Below are positions 29,462 to 48,374 of a stretch of DNA of 64,000 nucleotides, piece by piece. The notes beneath the pieces were generated by a model, which saw only the letters and a list, made by a program, of their open reading frames with translations, was not told the DNA's origin and did not search any database. The translations under genes were made by a program, and so were the position numbers. The DNA comes from an uncultured bacterium. Lineage in GTDB: Bacteria > Patescibacteriota > Gracilibacteria > Absconditabacterales > Absconditicoccaceae. Each line of letters begins with the position of its first letter. Position 1 is the stretch's first letter. Location of the stretch: positions 92,938 to 156,937 of the forward strand of contig CAMJIH010000001.1 in the NCBI GenBank assembly GCA_946405785.1. Direction: 5' to 3'.

Positions 29462-30973
<1,512 letters not shown>

Positions 30974-46547: not shown

Positions 46548-47696
<1,149 letters not shown>

Positions 47697-47713
47697 TTTT
47701 CCCCATAACAAAC

Positions 47714-47784
47714 CAGGAAAGAGAGGAATCGAACCTCTGCCACCAGCTTCGGAGACTAGTGTGCTACCATTACACCACTTTCCT
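47714..47784 (-). tRNA. tRNA with CCG anticodon; tRNA-Trp-like body, proposed to decode CGG as Trp
   Basis: AGGAAAGTGGTGTAATGGTAGCACACTAGTCTCCGAAGCTGGTGGCAGAGGTTCGATTCCTCTCTTTCCTG folds as a full cloverleaf; A1:U72, G73, loop CTCCGAA; no encoded CCA. Confidence 0.85.
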
Positions 47785-47804
47785 ATAACAAATAAATATA
47801 TTTT

Positions 47805-48374
47805 TTAAGCACCAGAAGAATCTGAAATCTTTAGTGCAATTTTTAGATTAAGATGAGATGATGCTAATATTGTAAGAATAGCCATTATCAATGAAACAAT
47901 AGGTATCATAGGAGTATATAAAACCACATATGAATTATTAAACAAAAGTTCATAAATATCTCCCTTAAAATAAGCTAGAGGGTAATAAACAGCACTCAAA
48001 ATACTTCCCATACACAAAACACACCATAACAATGTTTGAATTTTCTTTTCAAAAAGTTCTCATGAGAATTGAACAGATAAATGAGAATTTATTGCAAAAA
48101 ACCATAATCCCAAAATATATACAACCAACATAACCGTAGGTTGAGAATTAGCCAAAAACTCGCCAATAGAAGCATAAGAAACTCATAATATCTCTTGATC
48201 TCAAATTCACTGCAATTGAGCAGCCCACTGTAAAATACAAATTCACAATGACATACACAATACAAGGAAAACATAACTTCAAAATGTTATCTTGACCAAT
48301 CTTTCAGCTTTTAAAAATGAAAGAAGCAAAACAATAATTACAATTCAAAACACCACAGCAACATCTATCTGCAT
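47805..48374 (-). CDS. Multi-pass membrane protein
   Basis: 190 codons with UGA=Gly; several hydrophobic segments, e.g. 'VAVVFGIVIIVLLLSFL', 'PTVMLVVYILGLWFFAI'. Confidence 0.7.

Follow-up and report, generated by a model that had tools for sequence, protein, structure and literature searches.

In nearly all life, the codon CGG stands for arginine. A departure from this rule was predicted with Codetta (Shulgina and Eddy 2021) for Absconditabacteria, where both CGA and CGG are reassigned to tryptophan and the corresponding tRNAs carry Trp identity (PMC8629427), and a 2026 paper repeats the CGA/CGG reassignment for Absconditabacterales, with tRNA(CCG) having 5-bp anticodon stems (PMC13092985). 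A Trp-type tRNA(CCG) reading CGG is also known from Anaerococcus and RFN20 Bacilli, but there CGG is the only reassigned codon and tRNA(UCG) is missing (PMC8629427).

The source organism of the tRNA(CCG) gene studied here falls within Absconditabacterales/SR1, the clade of the published CGA/CGG=Trp code, and shares with that code the codons, the Trp-type tRNA(CCG) of the tRNA pair (its UCG member being seen in both congeners and across the family), the UGA=Gly assignment beneath it and the identity features G73, lack of A20 and A/G1:U72; the 5-bp anticodon stem is present as well. Nothing essential differs, and the genome is one more example of the same system, while the likeness to Anaerococcus and RFN20 Bacilli ends with the reassigned CGA and the additional Trp-type tRNA(UCG). 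The Codetta publication used the same criteria for Trp identity; in view of both papers, the finding is considered correct and known in kind. New are the codon exchange counts of this genome, the tryptophan of tryptophanyl-tRNA synthetase (TrpRS) written in CGA or CGG, the comparison of tRNA bodies and a lead on TrpRS residues. In this way, base-level support from one more genome is given to a bacterial sense-codon reassignment that has so far rested on computation only. The matter also concerns annotation, as pipelines label tRNA(CCG) as tRNA-Arg and mistranslate CGA/CGG in such genomes.

The window, i.e., the whole 64-kb stretch of DNA that was analysed (29% GC), belongs to an assembly of 0.99 Mb in 74 contigs, 77% complete (G000). 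The features of interest are the following:

47714..47784, minus strand: tRNA gene with anticodon CCG and predicted Trp-type identity (ARAGORN, Rfam RF00005, Trp-vs-Arg score)
47750..47752, minus strand: anticodon 5'-CCG-3', cognate codon CGG (sequence, ARAGORN)
47686..47706, minus strand: terminator-like hairpin with U-run, directly downstream of tRNA(CCG) (consensus match only)
47805..48374, minus strand: ORF of 189 aa without Pfam family, directly upstream of tRNA(CCG)
46548..47696, plus strand: queuine tRNA-ribosyltransferase (TGT) gene, convergent with tRNA(CCG)
29462..30973, plus strand: prolyl-tRNA synthetase (ProRS) gene

At 47713-47785, ARAGORN called a minus-strand tRNA whose anticodon is CCG, and the Rfam RF00005 match covers exactly 47714-47784 with 66 bits, with A1 at 47784, G73 at 47714 and the anticodon at 47752-47750. 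Every feature listed for this tRNA in the preliminary description is present in the sequence, namely the acceptor end A1:U72, G2:C71 and G3:C70, discriminator G73 and the anticodon loop CUCCGAA. Its variable region has 4 nt, the D-stem is GUGU and the D-loop AAUGGUA contains U20 and no A20 (GGUA vs GGAUA in Arg tRNAs). The acceptor end, the discriminator and D-loop base 20 are thus held in common with bacterial tRNA-Trp(CCA), whereas the anticodon is CCG instead of the CCA of canonical tRNA-Trp, and the body is unlike that of the family's resident tRNA-Trp. The terminator-like hairpin was observed once against 0.1 expected in shuffles, and the pairing of the upstream ORF with tRNA(CCG) is kept in both congeners (G001 and G002).

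In regard to isotype, the window tRNA was aligned by structural position with the tRNAs of about 50 genomes from the same family (f1) and from other families of the class, and Trp and Arg profiles were built from outgroup tRNA-Trp and tRNA-Arg, excluding the anticodon and base 37. This comparison had been set beforehand as the test that could refute the claimed Trp-type identity; it gave +34.9 bits for Trp over Arg and no clear-margin Arg score. Held-out outgroup Trp tRNAs scored from +24.6 to +73.2 bits and outgroup Arg tRNAs from -79.6 to -27.2 bits. All 29 tRNA(CCG) genes of the family are positive on the same score, and all 29 combine A1:U72 and G73 with the lack of A20; among outgroup tRNA(CCG)/(UCG), A73 is found in 26/28 and A20 in nearly all. 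Such a combination of features is far from anything attributable to chance, and, judged by its acceptor identity, the window tRNA is a Trp-type tRNA and not a canonical tRNA-Trp.

The meaning of the codons agrees with this identity. G000 and the congener G001 were compared over 27,823 codons in 84 pairs of orthologous ORFs with a median identity of 79%. CGA or CGG was matched with TGG in 57 cases and with another Arg codon in two. Six CGG codons of G000 could be placed, five opposite TGG and one opposite Tyr in G001, and CGG codons of G001 were found opposite TGG of G000 five times. Likewise, both CGA codons of ProRS and the single CGA codon of TGT occupy positions that hold Trp in 3/3 aligned solved homologues of each protein. 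One Trp of TrpRS, invariant in the outgroup proteins (22/22), is encoded in the 29 TrpRS copies of the family by TGG (20), CGA (6) or CGG (3), and in these 9/29 copies the Trp-charging enzyme is itself written in reassigned codons. According to these alignments, both CGA and CGG mean Trp in G000. The placement of the genome's own CGG codons and the three CGG-encoded TrpRS tryptophans support the initial proposal of tRNA(CCG) as the adaptor for CGG=Trp, and the accompanying statement that CGA is commoner than CGG was also borne out (19 vs 7 in the window's main ORFs). TGA is a sense codon throughout the ORFs of the window (821 in-frame TGA in 18,390 codons), TrpRS carries nine internal TGA codons and a UCA tRNA is present (L032) with U73, G1:C72, C2:G71 and G3:C70; from these features, UGA is predicted to be read as Gly here.

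It is very probable that a Trp-accepting tRNA(CCG) reads CGG as Trp, beside a UCG partner and the ordinary tRNA-Trp(CCA). The observed basis of this decoding scheme consists of sequence features, codon meaning and the tRNA gene set. According to the scheme, TrpRS would charge tRNA(CCG) by way of G73 and the A1:U72, G2:C71, G3:C70 acceptor end, and the charged tRNA would pair with CGG on the ribosome, resulting in the insertion of tryptophan. The Trp-type tRNA(UCG) would read CGA and could read CGG too, the ordinary tRNA-Trp(CCA) would read UGG, and arginine would be specified by AGA, AGG and CGU/CGC through tRNAs UCU, CCU and GCG. Arg tRNAs with these three anticodons are present in G000.

The second Trp-type tRNA, with anticodon UCG, foreseen in the preliminary description exists in both congeners and throughout the family, and it was not found in the contigs of the 77% complete G000 itself. 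The tRNA(UCG) genes of the family have the loop CUUCGGA or CUUCGGC, and nearly all have G73 without A20. About 145 bases separate the UCG tRNA from the CCA tRNA in the congener G002, on a stretch with no match in the G000 contigs. Because the obligatory tRNA-Trp(CCA) is likewise missing from these contigs, the absence of tRNA(UCG) is ascribed to an assembly gap. The genome search for the two tRNAs, with comparison of their bodies, that had been suggested at the outset yielded neither gene in G000, and the comparison was made with the congeners' copies.

We also considered a clade without tRNA(UCG), in which tRNA(CCG) would be forced to read CGA, and rejected it after looser patterns recovered UCG tRNAs there. 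One contig of 6 kb (G030:C58, L134) carries an Arg-type tRNA(UCG) with an encoded CCA end, adjoining an Arg tRNA(UCU). It is the only Arg-type tRNA(UCG) in the family, G030 also has a proper Trp-type one elsewhere, and the contig is likely a contaminant. No viral carriers of Trp-type tRNA(CCG) or tRNA(UCG) were found, and the well-formed viral tRNAs with YCG anticodons have the Arg-type A20. Four Bacilli assemblies and Finegoldia also carry a Trp-type tRNA(CCG). In Solobacterium sp. RGIG5799 (L313, L435), such a tRNA lies on a 7.4 kb contig, while TrpRS of the same assembly has CGG at positions that are Arg in Finegoldia TrpRS, a conflict that is probably due to a binning error.

As for the origin of tRNA(CCG), the initial idea of a tRNA-Trp derivative with a single A36-to-G36 change did not hold. 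Outside the anticodon, the body of the window tRNA shows 60% identity with tRNA-Trp(CCA) of the congeners and 72% with their tRNA(UCG), and its identity with tRNA-Trp from other families reaches 66%. In the family's resident tRNA-Trp, the D-stem is GCUC and the variable loop has 5 nt (26/28), as opposed to GUGU and 4 nt in the window tRNA, and a one-base origin from this gene is ruled out by the body comparison. In most YCG tRNAs of the family, the D-stem is GUGU and the variable loop has 4 nt, as in most outgroup tRNA-Trp (4-nt variable loop in 18/23).

Alternatively, tRNA(CCG) and its UCG partner could be ancestral Arg tRNAs that switched acceptor identity and never derived from a tRNA-Trp gene, a possibility with a fair claim to attention that nevertheless stays well short of even. 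The loops CUUCGGA (with G37) and CUCCGAA also occur in outgroup Arg tRNA(UCG) and Arg tRNA(CCG), respectively, the body of the window tRNA alone is not Trp-like, and a precedent for such a switch is known in the origin of AGG=Met (PMC8629427). On the other hand, the UCG bodies are strongly Trp-like (mean +33.1 bits), and both the D-stem (GUGU) and the length of the variable loop (4 nt) agree with outgroup tRNA-Trp. Trees built from subsets do not reject the Arg placement (p 0.29-0.46), but the full set with identity columns masked rejects it (p=1.5e-5) and retains the Trp placement (p=0.13). The Trp placement was never rejected (p 0.13-0.39), in trees built from the few columns that tRNAs offer. 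Descent from an older tRNA-Trp thus seems somewhat more likely than conversion of an Arg tRNA.

Two further genomes hold related structures. A near-copy of the tRNA(CCG) of G023, in which the anticodon is CCA and the acceptor stem is mismatched, adjoins the normal tRNA-Trp(CCA) of that genome (contig C98, position 2686, L086) and could represent either a twin in decay or a reversion. In G068, the normal tRNA(CCA) is accompanied by another one whose body is of the GUGU type seen in YCG tRNAs (G068:C55:79460, L138), a combination that ties the YCG and tRNA-Trp body types together.

It is highly improbable that the gene is an ordinary Arg tRNA(CCG) with a drifted acceptor end and that CGG still means Arg. 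Its anticodon is an Arg anticodon, from which alone ARAGORN labels it Arg, and once identity positions are masked, the body becomes ambiguous (-3.4 bits) and the nearest outgroup tRNA is Arg CCG. However, G73, R1:U72 and the lack of A20 are features of the whole family, CGA and CGG swap with TGG but hardly ever with Arg codons, and the invariant Trp of TrpRS can be written with either of them. Charging with glutamine is hardly credible: Gln tRNAs also have G73, G2:C71 and G3:C70, CGG=Gln occurs in Peptacetobacter, and the nearest tRNAs within G000 are Gln UUG (63%) and Gln CUG (62%), but the window tRNA has A1:U72 rather than U1:A72 and C35 rather than U35, and in the codon alignments CGA and CGG stand opposite Trp, not Gln.

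Reading of CGG as Trp by tRNA(CCG) raises the question of how TrpRS takes a tRNA with G36 or U34, which can now be tied to named residues. The E. coli TrpRS uses the anticodon CCA, A36 included, as an identity element (PMC12135181), and G36 should consequently weaken recognition unless the enzyme has changed. In the E. coli TrpRS-tRNA structure, Ser227 reads A36, Thr225, Asp226 and Lys274 read C35, the backbones of Tyr270 and Gly271 read C34, and Glu155 reads G73 (PMC12135181). With the residue register confirmed by alignment to solved TrpRS, the Ser227 equivalent is kept in 8/29 family proteins vs 19/22 outgroup proteins, being Ala, Thr or another residue in the other 21/29, and Gly271 is kept in 5/29 vs 22/22, with Lys in 24/29. 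All 29 family proteins retain Thr225, Lys274 and Glu155. The two shifted sites face bases 36 and 34, precisely those that differ among CCA, CCG and UCG.

We infer that TrpRS charges tRNA(CCG) and tolerates G36 and U34, possibly by means of the substitutions at the equivalents of Ser227 and Gly271, which are Ala and Lys here. That the single TrpRS of the clade remodelled its anticodon pocket to take all three Trp anticodons is a tentative reading, a little short of even, and no description of such a pocket as the enzyme half of the reassignment was found in the literature. Since 25 of 135 conserved columns are shifted in the family TrpRS, the shift of 2/6 anticodon-contact columns is not significant (P=0.31). 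Co-adaptation of TrpRS was not accepted as proven, both for this reason and because position 227 drifts in standard-code Bacilli too. In the RFN20-like order of Bacilli, Ser occupies position 227 in 13/27 genomes that lack a Trp-type tRNA(CCG) and in 0/5 genomes that have one, an association that is weak given the drift of this site in any case. Finegoldia and Solobacterium were left out of this comparison, since they have a different type of TrpRS, in which the position is Pro.

About half of the RFN20-like genomes that lack a Trp-type tRNA(CCG) have Leu, Met, Thr or Asn at the position equivalent to Ser227, a residue stated to be conserved among bacteria (L436-L464). Within the family, G013 has two TrpRS genes, on contigs C1 and C5 (L246, L215), with the anticodon-reading loops TDA and THS, while every other family genome with a match has one.
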